Shown: positions 1,159-40,107 of the stretch, piece after piece
Layout: each line of letters opens with the position of its first letter
Numbering within the stretch: position 1 is the stretch's first letter
Assembly (NCBI GenBank): GCA_019347575.1
Contig: JAHWKY010000036.1
Span: 1-42,695, forward strand
DNA: 42,695 nucleotides
Direction: 5' to 3'
Source: Actinomycetota bacterium
GTDB lineage: Bacteria; Actinomycetota; Nitriliruptoria; Nitriliruptorales; Nitriliruptoraceae
Translations under genes and position numbers: made by a program
Notes under the pieces: model-generated
Databases searched by the model: none
Seen by the model: only the letters and a program-made list of their open reading frames with translations
What the model was told of the DNA's origin: nothing

Positions 1159-1704
1159 ATGACGGACCACGACGGCACCGAGGCGCTGGACTTCCGCCCA
1201 TCACTGCGGCAGACGATGTTCATCACCGGCGTGTCGGAGGAGACCGACGGCAGGATCTCGCGGGTCGAGATCGAACTCGAGGGGGACCAGGGGGGCCCGC
1301 CCAAGCACGTGCATCCACAGCAGCGTGAGATCTACACCGTCGAGGAGGGCGAGCTGACCGTCACGCTCGATGGCGACCGGCACGTCGTGCCGGCGGGCGA
1401 GTCGATCGAGATCCCCGCCGGTTCCTTGCACGGGTTCGCCAACCCCTCGGACCAGCCGGTTCGCTTCACCGCCGACCATCGGCCGGCCCTTCGGTTCGAG
1501 GAGTACATCCGCCTCGTGCACCGCACGGTCCAGGGCAGGAAGGCCACCCTCCCGGTGATCATGCGCATCGTCCGCATCGAGAGCTCCTACCCCGAGACGA
1601 TCCTGCCGCCCCCCGGGCCACCCCGGCTGGTCAGCAAGGTACTCGCGGGGCTGGGGAAGCTGGCGGGTTTCCCGACCGGCGAGGAACTCACGGCGTCGAG
1701 CTGA
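1159..1704 (+). CDS. Single-domain cupin protein
   Basis: A 181-residue protein with one cupin barrel. Motif 1 is seen in KHVHPQQREIYTVEEGE (two His and a Glu as metal ligands), and motif 2 around PAGSLHGFANP supplies a further His. The C-terminal 70 residues (after FEEYIRLV) are helical and basic and end without a recognised domain. The ATG follows a purine-rich GGAGGCGGAG ribosome site. The substrate cannot be read from the sequence; the fold covers dioxygenases, isomerases and ligand-binding proteins. Its divergent position next to the TetR gene suggests that regulator controls it. It converges on the cupredoxin gene at 1733 with only 28 bp between. Confidence 0.8.
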   Translation: MTDHDGTEALDFRPSLRQTMFITGVSEETDGRISRVEIELEGDQGGPPKHVHPQQREIYTVEEGELTVTLDGDRHVVPAGESIEIPAGSLHGFANPSDQPVRFTADHRPALRFEEYIRLVHRTVQGRKATLPVIMRIVRIESSYPETILPPPGPPRLVSKVLAGLGKLAGFPTGEELTASS

Positions 1705-1732: not shown

Positions 1733-2392
1733 TCAAGCGGTGGCTGCTTGCTGCAGCGTCTCGTCGCACACCCGGGCCTCGCCCCCCAGGGCGACCACCC
1801 TCGCGGGCCGCAGGCGCCGGATCTCGTCGAGCACGACCTCGGGTACGTCACCGCATGCGGGCACGAGCAGGATCGGCCCGAGCGTCAACGACCCGCCTAC
1901 CAGGGCGTCGGGGTTCAGCTCCTTGTCGGCGAGGTAGACCTCCGGGGCGCCGTTGGGGAACTGGTACCGCGAGATCTCCACCGCGGTCTCCACGCGACCC
2001 GGGCCGGCCAGCCGATCGACCTCGCGGCCGCTCGCCGTCGTGACCGTGACCTTCCCGACCATGCCCTTGTCGACGTCGAAGCGGCAGAAGTAGTCGACGG
2101 TCCCGGTCTCGGTGAACGTGAGGGTGAAGCTCTCGCCGGGCTTGAGGAGTTGATCGAAGGTCGCGCCGTCGTCCGAGGTGGACGTGACCGTGTGCCCCTT
2201 CGAGTCGGTGTTCCTCCACACCACGCGGTCGGCGACCTCCACCTCCACGGTTGCCGGCGTGAAGCGGAAGTTCGACACCGCCTGGACCTCGACCGTCTCG
2301 GCTGCCGCGGTGGTTACGAGGACGATCCCACCGAGGATCACGAGGGTCAGGGTGACGACGAGGAGCCTGGTCGTCGAGGGCGGGTGAGACAT
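1733..2392 (-). CDS. Secreted cupredoxin-like protein with one cell-wall-binding (CWB2) repeat
   Basis: 219 residues. An N-terminal signal/anchor (residues 8-30) is followed by a plastocyanin/azurin-like domain (about 33-120) and one CWB2 repeat (about 127-219, with PDALVGGSLT and RPARVVALGGEARV). Type 1 copper ligands would be His67 (GHTVTS), Cys103 (YFC), a His three residues later, and Met111. The third ligand is Asp106 instead (YFCRFDVDKGM), so copper binding may be altered or lost. ATG at 2392 is preceded by GGAGGTG at good spacing. The gene is divergent from the multicopper oxidase, 165 bp away. The CWB2 repeat should hold the protein on the wall surface; that role is known for the family, not shown here. 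Confidence 0.82.
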   Translation of the reverse strand: MSHPPSTTRLLVVTLTLVILGGIVLVTTAAAETVEVQAVSNFRFTPATVEVEVADRVVWRNTDSKGHTVTSTSDDGATFDQLLKPGESFTLTFTETGTVDYFCRFDVDKGMVGKVTVTTASGREVDRLAGPGRVETAVEISRYQFPNGAPEVYLADKELNPDALVGGSLTLGPILLVPACGDVPEVVLDEIRRLRPARVVALGGEARVCDETLQQAATA

Positions 2393-2557
2393 GGTCGGCA
2401 CCTCCGGGTTCGGTCGCGGCAGCTCCAACGGAGGCGGGACCCTACCGCGGTCCGCCCCCCGGATGAGCCGATCCGCGGGACGCCACGGACGGGCCGCGGT
2501 AGCCTCCCCGGGCGCGCGCCACCGCACGCACCGTGGGATCGCCGGGCCGCTGCCGGC

Positions 2558-5020
2558 GTGGGGACAGGGAGCCAGCGCATCCTCTCTCGTCGTTCACTGC
2601 TGCGCAACGGGGTCGTGGCCGGGCTCGGCCTGTCGGCGTTCCGCCCGGTGGCGCTGGCCGCCGACGGCGACTCAGCGGCCACAGCCGATCTCGGGTACAG
2701 CTGCGATCTCGCGGGGGTGTCCGCGTCTCGGTTTCAGCTCGCGACCGCATCGCTGACACCGTTCGAGCGGGCGTTGGTGTTGCCGGAGGTCCTGGCCCCA
2801 CGGCGGTCCGATGCGACGACGGACCAGTACGACGTCACCATGCGCGTCGCGGAGCAGGCCGTGGTACCGGGGGCGGGGCCGACGACGATCTGGGGCTACG
2901 AGGGCACGTGGCCGGGACCGACCATCGTCGCGCGGGTCGACCGGACGGTCGAGATCACCCAGCACAACCAGCTAGACGTTCCCACCTCGATCCACCTCCA
3001 CGGCGCCCACGTCCCACCCGACATGGACGGCCACCCCAACGATCTCATCGACCCCCGCGCCGCGAAGCTCTACCGCTACCACAACGATCAGCTCGGGGCG
3101 ACGCTGTGGTACCACGACCACGTCGAGCACGCCACGGGGCACAACGTCTACCAAGGCCTGGCGGCGTTGTACCTGCTGCTCGACGAGCTCGAGGAGGAAC
3201 TCGGCCTGCCGCGCTTCGACCCCGACCCCTCCCTGACGCGCGACGTGCCGCTGGTCATCCAGGACCGCAGCTTCCAGGCGGACGGGCAGCTCGTCCCGTT
3301 CGACTCCTACCCCGGCGTCAGCGGTCACACCGGCCTGCTCGGCGACACGATCGTCGTCAACGGCGTGCCCCACCCCCGCTTCGAGGTCGGCCGGGCCCGC
3401 TACCGCTTCCGCATGGTCAACGGCTCCAACGCGCGTGTCTACGAGCTCGCGCTCTCGGACGGGGCGCCGCTGCTGCAGATCGCCACGGACGGTGGGCTGT
3501 TGCCCCGCCCCGTGCGCCGGAGCAGCATCGAGCTGTACCCCGCCGAGCGCGCCGAGGTCGTCATCGACTTCTCCGCGTACGCCAAGGGCACCGAGATCGT
3601 GCTCGAGAACCGCACCGCGGGCGCGTCGGGCACGCTACGGCAGGTGCTGCGTTTCGACGTGGTCCGCGACGAACCGGATCCCTCCGCGGCCCTGACGCCC
3701 ACCACGACGCTGCGACCCCGCGAGGATCTGCCGGCACCGACGGTCACCCGCGACCTCGAGTTCACGCTCGACGACAGCGGCTTCTGGGTCATCGACGGCA
3801 AACGCTTCGATCCCCAGCGGGTCGACCAGATCGTCAAGCACGGCGCCGTCGAACGCTGGCGCCTGCACGCACCTGCGGACCTCTCGCCGATGAGCCACCC
3901 CGTCCACCTGCATCTGATCATGTTCCAGGTGCTCGCACGCAACGGACGCCCGACTCCAGAGTGGGAGCGCGGCTGGAAGGACACCATCCCGGTCCACCCC
4001 GGCGACACCGTCGAGATCGTCGCCCGCTTCGAGGGGCACACCGGCACGTACGTCTACCACTGCCACAACCTCGAGCACGAGGACCACGACATGATGGCGC
4101 AGCTGCAGATCGTCGACCTGCCGCGCCTGGGCGGCCTCGACCGTATCGAGACGGCCGCCACCGTCTCGGCAGCCGCGTTCCCGGACGGCGCACCGGTGGC
4201 GTTCGTAGCCACGGGGCAGAGCTTCGCCGACGCGCTCGCCGGGGGGCCGGTCGCCGCCCTGCGCGGAGGCCCCGTGCTGTTGACGGGGGATCGCCTCCCC
4301 GACGCGACCCGCGCCGAACTGCAGCGTCTCGGCCCTGGCGAGGTCATCATCCTCGGTGGTGAGCGAGCGGTGACCGGGGCGGTCGAGGCGGACCTGGCCG
4401 CTGCAGGCGACTGGCACATCAGCCGCACGGGAGGCGACGACCGGTACGGCACGGCCGCCGCGCTCGCGATGCAGCACTTCGGATCGGGTGTAACGGTCGC
4501 CTACGTCGCCACGGGGATGGACTTCGCGGACGCGCTCGCGGCCGGCGTGCCGGCAGCACTCGGTGGCGGCCCGGTCCTGCTCGTGCGCCCCGACGCGGTC
4601 CCGGATGCCACAGGGCAGGCGCTGCGTGCGCTGCAGCCTCAACGCCTGTACGTGCTCGGAGGTACCCGCGCCGTCTCCCGCGATGTCGAGGAGCAGCTGC
4701 GCAGCTCCGTTGCGGGGCCTGTCGACCGTCTCGCCGGTGACGATCGGTACGGGACCGCCGCTGCCGTCGTCCGGCAGACGTTCACCGAGACGGGTGGGAC
4801 CGTCTACGTCGCCAGCGGCGTGGCCTTCCCCGACGCGCTCGCGGGTGTCCCCGCGGCCGCGCGCGTGAAGGCACCCGTGCTGCCGGTGCGCCCCGACGCC
4901 ATCCCCGCCGCCATCGCGACCGAGCTGCGCCGCCTCGAGCCGGCACGGATCGTCCTGCTCGGGGGCCCCGCGGCTGTTTCGGAACAGGTCGAACGCGAGC
5001 TCGCCGACTTCCTGCCCTGA
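2558..5020 (+). CDS. Tat-exported multicopper oxidase with three CWB2 repeats
   Basis: 820 residues from GTG at 2558, chosen because it sits just before a twin-arginine signal (SRRSLLRNG at residues 10-18); no strong ribosome site is visible, so the start is tentative. All four multicopper oxidase motifs are present: HLHGAH (about 145-150), WYHDHVEH (about 184), HPVHLHL (about 447) and HCHNLEHEDHDMM (about 501-513), so type 1 and trinuclear copper sites look intact. The body resembles the CotA/bilirubin-oxidase/FtsP-like group. From about residue 525 to the end are three tandem CWB2 repeats (FVATGQSFADALAGG, YVATGMDFADALAAG, YVASGVAFPDALAG). Oxidation of phenolics, bilirubin-like compounds or metal ions with O2 reduction at the cell surface is the likely role; the substrate is unknown. 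Confidence 0.9.
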   Translation: MGTGSQRILSRRSLLRNGVVAGLGLSAFRPVALAADGDSAATADLGYSCDLAGVSASRFQLATASLTPFERALVLPEVLAPRRSDATTDQYDVTMRVAEQAVVPGAGPTTIWGYEGTWPGPTIVARVDRTVEITQHNQLDVPTSIHLHGAHVPPDMDGHPNDLIDPRAAKLYRYHNDQLGATLWYHDHVEHATGHNVYQGLAALYLLLDELEEELGLPRFDPDPSLTRDVPLVIQDRSFQADGQLVPFDSYPGVSGHTGLLGDTIVVNGVPHPRFEVGRARYRFRMVNGSNARVYELALSDGAPLLQIATDGGLLPRPVRRSSIELYPAERAEVVIDFSAYAKGTEIVLENRTAGASGTLRQVLRFDVVRDEPDPSAALTPTTTLRPREDLPAPTVTRDLEFTLDDSGFWVIDGKRFDPQRVDQIVKHGAVERWRLHAPADLSPMSHPVHLHLIMFQVLARNGRPTPEWERGWKDTIPVHPGDTVEIVARFEGHTGTYVYHCHNLEHEDHDMMAQLQIVDLPRLGGLDRIETAATVSAAAFPDGAPVAFVATGQSFADALAGGPVAALRGGPVLLTGDRLPDATRAELQRLGPGEVIILGGERAVTGAVEADLAAAGDWHISRTGGDDRYGTAAALAMQHFGSGVTVAYVATGMDFADALAAGVPAALGGGPVLLVRPDAVPDATGQALRALQPQRLYVLGGTRAVSRDVEEQLRSSVAGPVDRLAGDDRYGTAAAVVRQTFTETGGTVYVASGVAFPDALAGVPAAARVKAPVLPVRPDAIPAAIATELRRLEPARIVLLGGPAAVSEQVERELADFLP

Positions 5021-5038
5021 CGAGGCCCGCTCACAGGC

Positions 5039-5064
5039 GGGGAGGGCCCCGTGAGGCCCTCCCC
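5039..5064. terminator. Hairpin terminator between convergent genes
   Basis: A perfect 10-bp stem (GGGGAGGGCC pairing with GGCCCTCCCC) with a six-base loop lies 18 bp after the oxidase stop and 22 bp before the end of the opposite-strand CHRD gene. There is no strong T tract, as is common in GC-rich actinobacteria. It can serve both strands. Confidence 0.7.
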
Positions 5065-5086
5065 TGTGTGCGTCGGGTGGATCAGC

Positions 5087-7234
5087 TCACCGCGTGAACG
5101 CCGACATCGACATCCGCTTGACCGGAGCGTCGTGGGGTGGATCCGGCGTGAAGAGCAGGCCCTTCAGCTCGCCGCCGGGGTTCGCCTCGGTGTGCACGTT
5201 CAGGTAGTAGTCGCTGGGCGTGGCACCGATCGCGGCGACCGTGGCCTCGTCGAGGCCCTCGGCGCAGTCCCAGGCCACGTAGAACACGTCCTCGGGCGAG
5301 AACTCACGCTTCTCCGGTGTCTCCAGCGGCACCACCACACCACCGGTTTCGACGTCGTGGATGTGCTGCGCGGTCGGGTCACCGGTCGTCCCGAAGGCGA
5401 ACGTGAAGTAGCACAGCTCGGTCGGGTCGTCGGCGTTGCCGACGAAGAACCCGAACCCACCCGCGAAGGGCAGGCCCTCCACGCCGGCCTCTTCAGCTGT
5501 GGTGAACGACCCGGCGAGGAACGACGGCTCGAGGAGCTGGCCACGCACCGCGCCGCCGGGGAACGACTCGGTGTGCAGGTTGAGGTAGTAGCCGCCGGGG
5601 TTGGCCAGGATGTCGGCCACCACCGCCTCGTCGATACCGAAGGTGCACCCGTAGGGGTCACCGAACAGACCTGGGCTCACCAGCAGCGGCACCACCGGTG
5701 GACCATTGACACCCTCGGCACCCTCGTGGACGTGTGCGGCCGCGACCGGCTCCGGCACGTCGCTGAACCAGCTGTAGCAGAGCGCCCCGCCGTCCGGCGT
5801 GCCGCGCACGTCACCCGCGCCTCCCGCACCGGCCAGTCCAGAGGGATCGCCCTCGTCGTCGACCTCGGCTTCGCCGGTCATCAGGGCCAAGCGCGTCCGG
5901 GGGCCGAAGAACGGTCCGCTGTTGGAAGCGGTCTGCGCCTGTGCGCAGCTCGTGCTCGCCAGGTTCGGGCCGCACACGACGTGGGGTCGGCCACCCATGA
6001 GCGCCTGGAACGCGACACCATCGAGGGTCGTGTCGTTGGCGCCGGTGTCCGCGGTCCGGGACCGCACGAGCAGCAGACCGGACGCCCCGGTGGTGTGCGC
6101 CGCGGCCGGGAAGCCCGCGGCCCACGCGTTCTCGTCCATCGCCTCGATGAGCACCAGCCGGTGCATGCCACCCACGAAGTCGTCCGCGTGCTCCGCCGCC
6201 TGGGACCGGAGGAACAGCTCGGTGGCGGTCTCGAAGCGCGTCTCACCGCCAGCTCGATCCACGTCGAGGCCCAGCCCGCGCAGGTCCTCCTCGACGTCGT
6301 CGCTGAGCGCGTCGGGGCCACCCGCGATGATGACCGAGCGGATGCCGGATCTACTCAGGTAGTCGCTCGTCTCGGGCGACAGCGCCTCGGTCCGCGACAG
6401 CAGCACCGGGATGCCGAGGTTCGCGCCCAGCGCCCCGGCGCCGAGCGAGTCGGCGAAGGCCTGGCTCTGGTCGCGCCCCGGCTCCTCCCAGGCGCGAGCG
6501 ATGATGGCCTGGCTCGCGCTCGGGAAGAACGCTGCCGCCGTCGCCGTCGCCGTGGTCAGGCGCGTGTCGCCGAACACGCGACGCGTGCGGTAGCCCAGCT
6601 CCACGAGCCGTGCCTCGACCTGAGGCTGCAGCGCCTCGGGACCGCCGAGCAGGATGACCTGTTGCGCCCCCAGCCGCGTCAGCTCCTCCTCGACGCCCCG
6701 CACGACCCGATCGTTGAGCGTCAGCAGCAGCGGCGCCCCGAGAGCACCCTGCGCCGGCCCGGAACTCAGCGAGTCGGCGAAGACGTCGTTGCGCGCCAGC
6801 AGCACCGTGGGGGCGGAACCGTCGTCGAAGCCCCACCGGCTCCAGTTGAGCGCGCGATCGATGTTGGTGTCGCCGCTGATCATGCTGGCTCGGGTCGGTT
6901 CGACGATGACCGTCCCCGCCATACCCTCGCCCTCGGGATCGCCGTGGAACTTGCAGAAGTAGGGCACGATCCCGGGCTCGGTGAACGTCACCGCGTAGGT
7001 GTCGCCGCGGTAGCGCGTCCCCGAGTCGAAGCTGAAGTCGGACCCGGTGACCGTGTGCGGCTCGGCTCCCGCCCAGTCCCACACGACGGTGCCACCCGCC
7101 TTGACCACGATCGGGTCGGGATCGAAGGCGAAGTCGCGCACCACGGCACGTGAGCCTGCCGCGGCGACCGGCAGCGCGACCAGCAACGAGCTGACCAACG
7201 TGGCCGTGGCGATGACGATCGACATCCTCCGCAT
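5087..7234 (-). CDS. Secreted cupredoxin - CWB2 repeats - two CHRD domains
   Basis: 715 residues. A signal peptide (1-26) leads into a cupredoxin domain (27-112) with a complete type 1 copper set: HTVTG, then Cys94-x-x-His97 (YFCKFHGD) and a downstream Met (GEGMAG). CWB2-type repeats follow (about 115-405, with LLARNDVFADSLSSG, VILLGGPEAL and VIIAGGPDAL). Two CHRD domains occupy about 455-580 and 585-705, each ending with the YYLN-HTE-PGG pattern (NLHTESFPGG, NVHTEANPGG). CHRD domains are beta-sandwich modules found in chordin and in bacterial surface proteins; their ligand is unclear. ATG at 7234 has GGAAAGG eight bases upstream. It converges on the multicopper oxidase and appears to be a partner of it. 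Confidence 0.88.
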   Translation of the reverse strand: MRRMSIVIATATLVSSLLVALPVAAAGSRAVVRDFAFDPDPIVVKAGGTVVWDWAGAEPHTVTGSDFSFDSGTRYRGDTYAVTFTEPGIVPYFCKFHGDPEGEGMAGTVIVEPTRASMISGDTNIDRALNWSRWGFDDGSAPTVLLARNDVFADSLSSGPAQGALGAPLLLTLNDRVVRGVEEELTRLGAQQVILLGGPEALQPQVEARLVELGYRTRRVFGDTRLTTATATAAAFFPSASQAIIARAWEEPGRDQSQAFADSLGAGALGANLGIPVLLSRTEALSPETSDYLSRSGIRSVIIAGGPDALSDDVEEDLRGLGLDVDRAGGETRFETATELFLRSQAAEHADDFVGGMHRLVLIEAMDENAWAAGFPAAAHTTGASGLLLVRSRTADTGANDTTLDGVAFQALMGGRPHVVCGPNLASTSCAQAQTASNSGPFFGPRTRLALMTGEAEVDDEGDPSGLAGAGGAGDVRGTPDGGALCYSWFSDVPEPVAAAHVHEGAEGVNGPPVVPLLVSPGLFGDPYGCTFGIDEAVVADILANPGGYYLNLHTESFPGGAVRGQLLEPSFLAGSFTTAEEAGVEGLPFAGGFGFFVGNADDPTELCYFTFAFGTTGDPTAQHIHDVETGGVVVPLETPEKREFSPEDVFYVAWDCAEGLDEATVAAIGATPSDYYLNVHTEANPGGELKGLLFTPDPPHDAPVKRMSMSAFTR

Positions 7235-39552: not shown

Positions 39553-39804
39553 ATGGCTGTCAGGAAGGTAGCGGTCACGCTGCCCGAGGAATTGTTCGAA
39601 ATGGTCGAGCGACTCCGGGACATCGAGCATCGTTCGCGGTCCGACGTGTTCCAGGACGCGCTGCGCCGCTACTTCGGCGAGCCGGTGTACGAGCCGTCCG
39701 AGGAGGAGCGTCGCCTACTCGACGAGGCCCTGGCCGGGCTGGAGCGCGAACCGGCCGCAGGTCGGTCGTGGAGCGACGTCCGGGCCGAGATCTGGCCCGA
39801 GTGA
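39553..39804 (+). CDS. Ribbon-helix-helix antitoxin (ParD/CopG type)
   Basis: 83 residues. The RHH DNA-binding fold is at the N-terminus (VRKVAVTLPEELFEMVERLR, RSRSDVFQDALRRYFG); the C-terminal acidic/helical part (EPSEEERRLLDEALAGLERE) would wrap the toxin. GGGAGG lies before the ATG. The stop is followed directly by the toxin GTG, with no gap. Palindromic operator upstream suggests autoregulation. Confidence 0.88.
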   Translation: MAVRKVAVTLPEELFEMVERLRDIEHRSRSDVFQDALRRYFGEPVYEPSEEERRLLDEALAGLEREPAAGRSWSDVRAEIWPE

Positions 39805-40107
39805 GTGGACCTGTTCCTCAGGCCCGAGGCCGTTGCTGACCTGCGCGCGACTCGCGCGTACTACGAGGAAGCCGAGGCCGGGCTCAGCCGCCGCTTCGTG
39901 GCGTCGCTGGACGAGCTGTTCGTCCGACTGCGGGCGTTCCCACGCAGCGCCCCACCGGTTGCCGGCTACGAGGATGTGCGTCGTGCCGTGGTCCGCGGGT
40001 TCCCCTTCGTGGTCTTCTACCGTCTTGGGCCGGACCGGATCGACATCTTGCGGGTCTCACACGCCGCTCGATCAGACGCCGATCGGCCGCGCGACGCCGG
40101 GGTTTGA
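39805..40107 (+). CDS. ParE/RelE-type toxin
   Basis: 100 residues in the RelE/ParE fold: LFLRPEAVADLRATRAYYEE (alpha hairpin), LRAFPRSAPPV, DVRRAVVRGFPFVVFYRLG and ILRVSHAARSD. The basic Arg near the end and R-x-PF-VFYR core are typical of ParE, which targets DNA gyrase; RelE-type mRNA cleavage is the alternative. It starts immediately after the antitoxin stop. The pair looks complete and intact despite the decayed surroundings. Confidence 0.88.
   Translation: MDLFLRPEAVADLRATRAYYEEAEAGLSRRFVASLDELFVRLRAFPRSAPPVAGYEDVRRAVVRGFPFVVFYRLGPDRIDILRVSHAARSDADRPRDAGV

Follow-up and report, generated by a model that had tools for sequence, protein, structure and literature searches.

A laccase-type multicopper oxidase fused to CWB2 repeats adjoins a cupredoxin-CHRD protein bearing the same repeats in a Nitriliruptoria genome

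Organization of the locus

The window, by which we mean the whole stretch of 42,695 nucleotides analyzed here, comes from a genome of 4.9 Mb (G000) assigned to the Nitriliruptoraceae, in which it lies on contig C36. Three genes, which we call A, B, and C, lie next to one another. Gene A (positions 1733 to 2392, reverse strand) encodes 219 residues with a signal peptide, a plastocyanin-like domain (residues 27-119), and one CWB2 repeat, as read from the open reading frame, Pfam, and a phmmer search of the PDB. Gene B (2558 to 5020, forward strand) encodes 820 residues with a Tat signal, a three-domain multicopper oxidase (MCO) reaching to about residue 520, and three CWB2 repeats at residues 523-812, as placed by Pfam, PDB phmmer, and an alignment of 12 MCOs. 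Gene C (5087 to 7234, reverse strand) encodes 715 residues in which Pfam, alignment, and a structure model searched with Foldseek recognize a signal peptide, a cupredoxin, a CWB2 array, and two CHRD domains. Open reading frames and Pfam scores well above chance identify all three as real genes with these folds. An earlier note on this DNA had described three neighboring genes joining copper folds to CWB2 repeats; every domain it named is present, but A has a single repeat and an incomplete copper site.

The likely start of A is the ATG at 2392, with GGAGGT upstream, and B probably starts at the GTG at 2558, opening with MGTGSQRILSRRSLLRNGVVAGLGLS, a Tat-type signal. A and B diverge across an intergenic region of 165 bases (2393 to 2557), while B and C converge with 66 bases between them. 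The genes are therefore neighbors but do not form an operon, a reading that was dropped on account of their alternating strands. A cupin gene (1159 to 1704, forward strand; Pfam Cupin_2, 1e-18) adjoins A and is probably unrelated to the three. The window also holds a ribbon-helix-helix/ParE toxin-antitoxin pair at 39553-40107 (Pfam RHH_1 and ParE_toxin).

The oxidase of gene B

Pfam matches in B are to CWB2 (9e-53, over three stretches), Cu-oxidase_2 (1.8e-26), and Cu-oxidase_3 (2.1e-25), and its oxidase domains run in the order Cu-oxidase_3, Cu-oxidase, Cu-oxidase_2, as in three-domain enzymes of the laccase type. The earlier note had credited the oxidase with all four copper motifs and a Tat signal, and both are borne out. 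The motifs HLHGAH, WYHDH, HPVHLHL, and HCHNLEHEDHDMM are complete, they supply ten His, one Cys, and the axial Met, and these ligands are invariant across the alignment of 12 MCOs. The Tat motif reads SRRSLLR.

The best solved relatives of B are bilirubin oxidase and CotA (PDB phmmer, ~4e-75). CotA is located in the spore coat. With CotA laccase and bacterial bilirubin oxidase (1GSK, 8z59, 8z5b), B shares the three-domain MCO architecture and the same copper motifs, including HCHxLEHEDxDMM, but it differs from CotA in its Tat-type signal and its three CWB2 repeats. These repeats (4124 to 4993, forward strand) come immediately after the final MCO domain as a tandem triplet marked by PVLL, PVLL, and, in the third, PVLP. 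None of the NCBIfam equivalog cut-offs for CueO, PhsA, and FtsP is reached by B, whose CueO score is 282.5 of 525 bits. The Met-rich segment of CueO is absent from B, which has no Met in residues 340-400. The features of its sequence thus suggest that B is a Tat-exported, CotA-like MCO of the laccase type.

Gene C and its CHRD domains

In C, Pfam recognizes CHRD (1.2e-32, over two stretches), CWB2 (7.6e-21), and Copper-bind (2.2e-05). The cupredoxin domain (6899 to 7135, reverse strand), defined by its PF00127 match and its ligands, has a complete type-1 site consisting of H60, C94, H97, and M105. In the C-type cupredoxins of one family (L095, L141, L142, L147, L148), the axial Met position is occupied by Gln, as in stellacyanin. 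Two CWB2 repeats of C are found by Pfam, and a third is seen only in an alignment of relatives and in the fold match; this third repeat is degenerate, lacks the PILL motif, and is missed by both Pfam and our own profile. The full model of C (mean pLDDT 75) brings up Clostridioides difficile Cwp6, Cwp8, and SlpH in Foldseek, followed by cupredoxins and a tethered SOD pair, and its CWB2 part matches C. difficile wall proteins at an E-value of 7e-18.

The CWB2 proteins of C. difficile (Cwp2, Cwp66, SlpA; PMC4973711) resemble B in their triple array, and also C if its degenerate third repeat is counted. B and C differ from them in carrying a copper oxidoreductase as cargo, and A differs in having one repeat only. 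Since the third repeat of B carries PVLP and that of C is degenerate, we infer the anchoring of both proteins to the wall rather than take it as given.

The two CHRD domains of C (5135 to 5902, reverse strand) each contain an HxH followed by a later NxH (H501/H503/H554 and H624/H626/H681). The first of them, modeled together with 27 bacterial CHRDs, gives an AF2 model with a pLDDT of 92 that is predicted to form a Greek-key barrel of the SOD type. Cu,Zn-SODs account for nearly all of its top 50 PDB matches in Foldseek, the best with an E-value of only 0.017 at a probability of 0.98. The HxH and later NxH are nearly invariant among the 27 bacterial domains, and sequence comparison finds no such triad in chordin. 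The CHRDs of chordin (PMC13382577; 9RD6) belong to the same sequence family as those of C, and crystal structures show them as SOD-like barrels without the catalytic His (PMC13382577). Unlike C, chordin lacks the bacterial His triad.

How close do the bacterial domains come to a superoxide dismutase? The copper ligands of the Cu-only enzyme SOD5 are H75, H77, H93, and H153 (PMC13017621), and the bacterial CHRDs have no conserved fourth His. The surface-layer protein DR_0644 of Deinococcus has been reported as a Cu-only SOD with a triad of His74, His76, and His182 (PMC9823218). It resembles the CHRDs of C in its SOD-like fold and its HxH...H pattern; no homology between the two is detected by sequence, and no cupredoxin or CWB2 part has been described for DR_0644. 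A profile comparison between CHRD and SodC, one row of which was mis-framed (L254), gave no significant homology, though two HxH motifs fall in register. We detected no Sod_Cu gene in the genome of the window or in the other genomes with a fused MCO; SodC is missing from most genomes of the class anyway. A link between bacterial CHRD domains and copper was not found in the literature searched. Because of the SOD-fold model, the HxH...NxH triad that chordin lacks, the triad of DR_0644, and the missing Sod_Cu, a copper site in the bacterial CHRD is plausible. With its CHRDs modeled as a Cu,Zn-SOD fold bearing a conserved HxH...H triad, C may thus combine two different copper sites.

The altered cupredoxin of gene A

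Gene A matches Copper-bind (3.9e-11) and CWB2 (8.6e-10) in Pfam and plastocyanin 1bxu in the PDB (phmmer, 1.1e-10). The cupredoxin domains of A and C resemble plastocyanin, amicyanin, and halocyanin. A differs from these in having Asp in place of the second His, as several C-type relatives do in having Gln in place of the axial Met. By alignment, the copper-site residues of A are H67, C103, D106, and M111. D106, encoded by GAC at 2075 to 2077 (reverse strand), stands at the position that the second His occupies in plastocyanin (1BXU) and in every C-type relative, so the usual type-1 set of His, Cys, His, and an axial ligand is broken. We compared about two dozen stretches of cupredoxin sequence, drawn from this genome and from the class, and only A has Asp at this position; a few of the more distantly related stretches align differently there. 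Pfam finds one CWB2 repeat (residues 127-211; nucleotides 1760-2014, reverse strand) instead of an array. In C. difficile, anchoring requires three CWB2 repeats, and losing one suffices to release the protein (PMC4973711). Given Asp106 and a single repeat measured against the C. difficile rule, we predict that A by itself should have no normal blue-copper site and, unless it forms trimers, no usual binding to the wall. In none of the other three genomes with an MCO-CWB2 fusion does a counterpart of A adjoin the oxidase. Judged by its sequence, A is not a credible electron carrier.

Distribution of the fusion and of the B-C pair

MCO domains were searched for in 66 genomes of the class and in a sample of 396 genomes of the phylum, and the MCO-CWB2 junction was searched for in the same 396. 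The fusion was detected in four genomes of the class: that of the window and three others (G190, G422, G283), which belong to one genus of another family. Among the 396 phylum genomes, the junction profile is matched over its full length in the window's genome, G190, and G283 and in no other, and CWB2 is absent from the best 80 MCO matches to the junction in the GTDB 220 collection. All four fused MCOs are preceded by RR motifs and carry three CWB2 repeats. The MCO tree neither shows nor excludes a single origin of the fusion.

In the genomes searched, the MCO closest to B by identity (53%) is that of G168, which resembles B in ending with a C-terminal wall-anchor triplet but differs in that the triplet consists of SLH domains instead of CWB2. 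Attachment of this type of enzyme to the wall thus recurs by another route. The CotA-like SLH fusion lies at L096:9281-11209, and no cupredoxin-CWB2 or CHRD gene occurs within the 20 kb read around it.

In G190 (L095) and G422 (L141), the MCO-CWB2 gene divergently adjoins a gene whose product is built like C, from a cupredoxin, three CWB2 repeats, and two CHRD domains; in the window the two genes converge. A single conserved cluster of three genes, for which the earlier note had suggested searching Nitriliruptoria and relatives, was dropped: the B-C pair recurs in these two genomes and A does not. In G283, the MCO-CWB2 gene has as its neighbor a gene (L094:8575-10671) that joins a CWB2 array to an NHL-like propeller and encodes neither cupredoxin nor CHRD.

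The association is not exclusive. Oxidase and C-type genes occur together in three genomes, but C-type genes are also found apart from any adjoining MCO, as a second copy in both G190 and G422 and as one copy each in G272 and G294. The finding that the earlier note had named as refuting its idea, oxidase and cupredoxins lying apart and never together, is thus half borne out. The copy in G294, a genome with no MCO match, lies on a short contig. The second copies in G190 and G422 and the copy in G272 each stand directly behind a GMC oxidoreductase gene (by Pfam for the G272 copy). At L142, L147, and L148, in three genomes of one genus, the two genes lie on the same strand with 40 to 107 bases between them. 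The GMC oxidoreductase and C-type genes are likely an operon. In a tree of the C-type proteins, the oxidase-linked copies form no clade.

How much does adjacency mean in a genome so rich in CWB2? The window's genome yields 157 CWB2 hits, with 59 genes among the 150 listed, and the presence of CWB2 alone therefore says little. Pairs of CWB2 arrays within 4 kb number five, against 3.4 expected if the arrays were scattered. Yet the only MCO-CWB2 gene of this genome has a cupredoxin-CWB2 gene on either side, out of three such genes known in all. Were genes placed at random, this arrangement would have a probability of about 2.5e-7; taking both neighbors as CWB2 genes raises it to 0.002, and both figures are post hoc. 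Together with this, the recurrence in G190 and G422 makes it unlikely that the pairing of B and C arose by chance. Whether by inheritance or by arising twice, B and C are truly linked in two lineages.

Interpretation

What might these proteins do on the cell surface? The reading we prefer, which we judge probable though far from assured, is that B works as a laccase tethered to the wall and takes small molecules or ions outside the cell as its donors, that C is a second surface copper protein, and that A is a decayed or repurposed satellite that would lack a normal blue-copper site. B would be exported folded, with its copper, through the Tat pathway, and its three CWB2 repeats would keep it attached to the wall. 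Its type-1 copper would oxidize small extracellular donors, either phenolics or low-valent metals such as Cu(I), Mn(II), or Fe(II), and its trinuclear site would reduce O2 to water. C, likewise anchored to the wall and possibly in contact with B, would contribute an intact cupredoxin site and two SOD-fold CHRD domains. It may serve the same surface copper and oxygen chemistry by binding or supplying copper, by buffering electrons, or by handling reactive oxygen. The idea of the earlier note that an MCO is displayed on the wall through CWB2, next to a cupredoxin-bearing wall protein, thus finds support in the sequences and in the recurrence of the pair within the class.

The same note went further and took A and C as a pair of wall-bound electron carriers feeding B, a terminal oxidase that would reduce O2 outside the cell. 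Three adjacent genes with copper folds, the recurrent B-C pair, and the intact type-1 site of C speak for such a chain. Yet the carrier pair loses one partner in A, which lacks a copper His, has one CWB2 repeat, and has no equivalent next to any of the other three fused oxidases. No cytochrome or other electron donor was recognized among the window's called genes, part of which were scanned; enzymes of the laccase type to which B belongs draw their electrons from small molecules, and C-type genes also turn up in places that lack an oxidase. An outer-surface respiratory chain is thus supported neither by A, nor by the locus, nor by the enzyme type of B, and we regard it as highly improbable. 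A mere accumulation of domains, shuffled freely onto CWB2 arrays and brought together by local duplication or chance with no joint function, seems to us equally improbable. It would fit the roughly 59 CWB2 genes, the five close pairs where 3.4 are expected, the differing orientation of B and C between lineages, and the lack of a clade of oxidase-linked C proteins, but it accounts poorly for the flanking of the only MCO-CWB2 gene by two of three known cupredoxin-CWB2 genes and for the return of the B-C pair in another family.

An antioxidant or copper-handling module at the surface is possible, if on the unlikely side. Here B would be a cuprous oxidase that clears Cu(I), the CHRDs would act like Cu-only SODs, and the cupredoxin would load or store copper. 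The SOD fold of the CHRD model points this way, as do the nearly invariant HxH and later His of the 27 bacterial CHRDs that chordin lacks, the three-His pattern reported for DR_0644 (PMC9823218), and the lack of a Sod_Cu gene in every genome with a fused MCO, G000 included. Against it stand Foldseek E-values of 0.017 and weaker, a CHRD-SodC profile comparison without significance, the unconserved fourth His of Cu-only SODs, and a B protein without the Met-rich segment and below the cut-off of CueO (282 of 525 bits); the missing SodC also loses weight in a class most of whose genomes have none. Bolder, and to our minds unlikely, is the proposal that the laccase and the blue-copper/CHRD protein form one module coupling O2 reduction to the control of superoxide or copper, with CHRDs that bind copper in the manner of Cu-only SODs. 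If true, bacterial CHRDs would thereby gain their first enzymatic role.

Taken singly, the parts (laccases, CWB2 anchors, cupredoxins, and CHRD domains) are already known. As the earlier note had supposed, no system of this make-up appears to have been described: neither the MCO-CWB2 fusion nor a protein with a cupredoxin, CWB2 repeats, and two CHRDs adjoining it was found in the literature searched, which leaves out most subscription papers. Literature matches for CWB2 together with multicopper oxidase turned out to concern Gordonia strain CWB2, not the domain. Should the reading of a tethered laccase hold, the locus would show in nature how CWB2 can fix a laccase to a wall of the Gram-positive type, and a relative would supply a counterpart anchored by SLH. 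It would also offer the bacterial CHRD, to which we found no role assigned, a testable function, that of an SOD scaffold holding a copper site. Gene A adds a caution that not every cupredoxin fold counts as an electron carrier.

Other genes of the window's genome show related combinations. In the third cupredoxin-CWB2 protein (L236:5052-6836, contig C19), whose copper ligands are intact, a PKD domain separates the cupredoxin from a set of three CWB2 repeats. A short gene at L239:1401-1856 (contig C90) resembles A in encoding only one CWB2 repeat, and the repeats of the two belong to one subtype. At L241:1002-6860 (contig C1), two further genes are flanked by two similar cupredoxin-bearing genes, all on the same strand.
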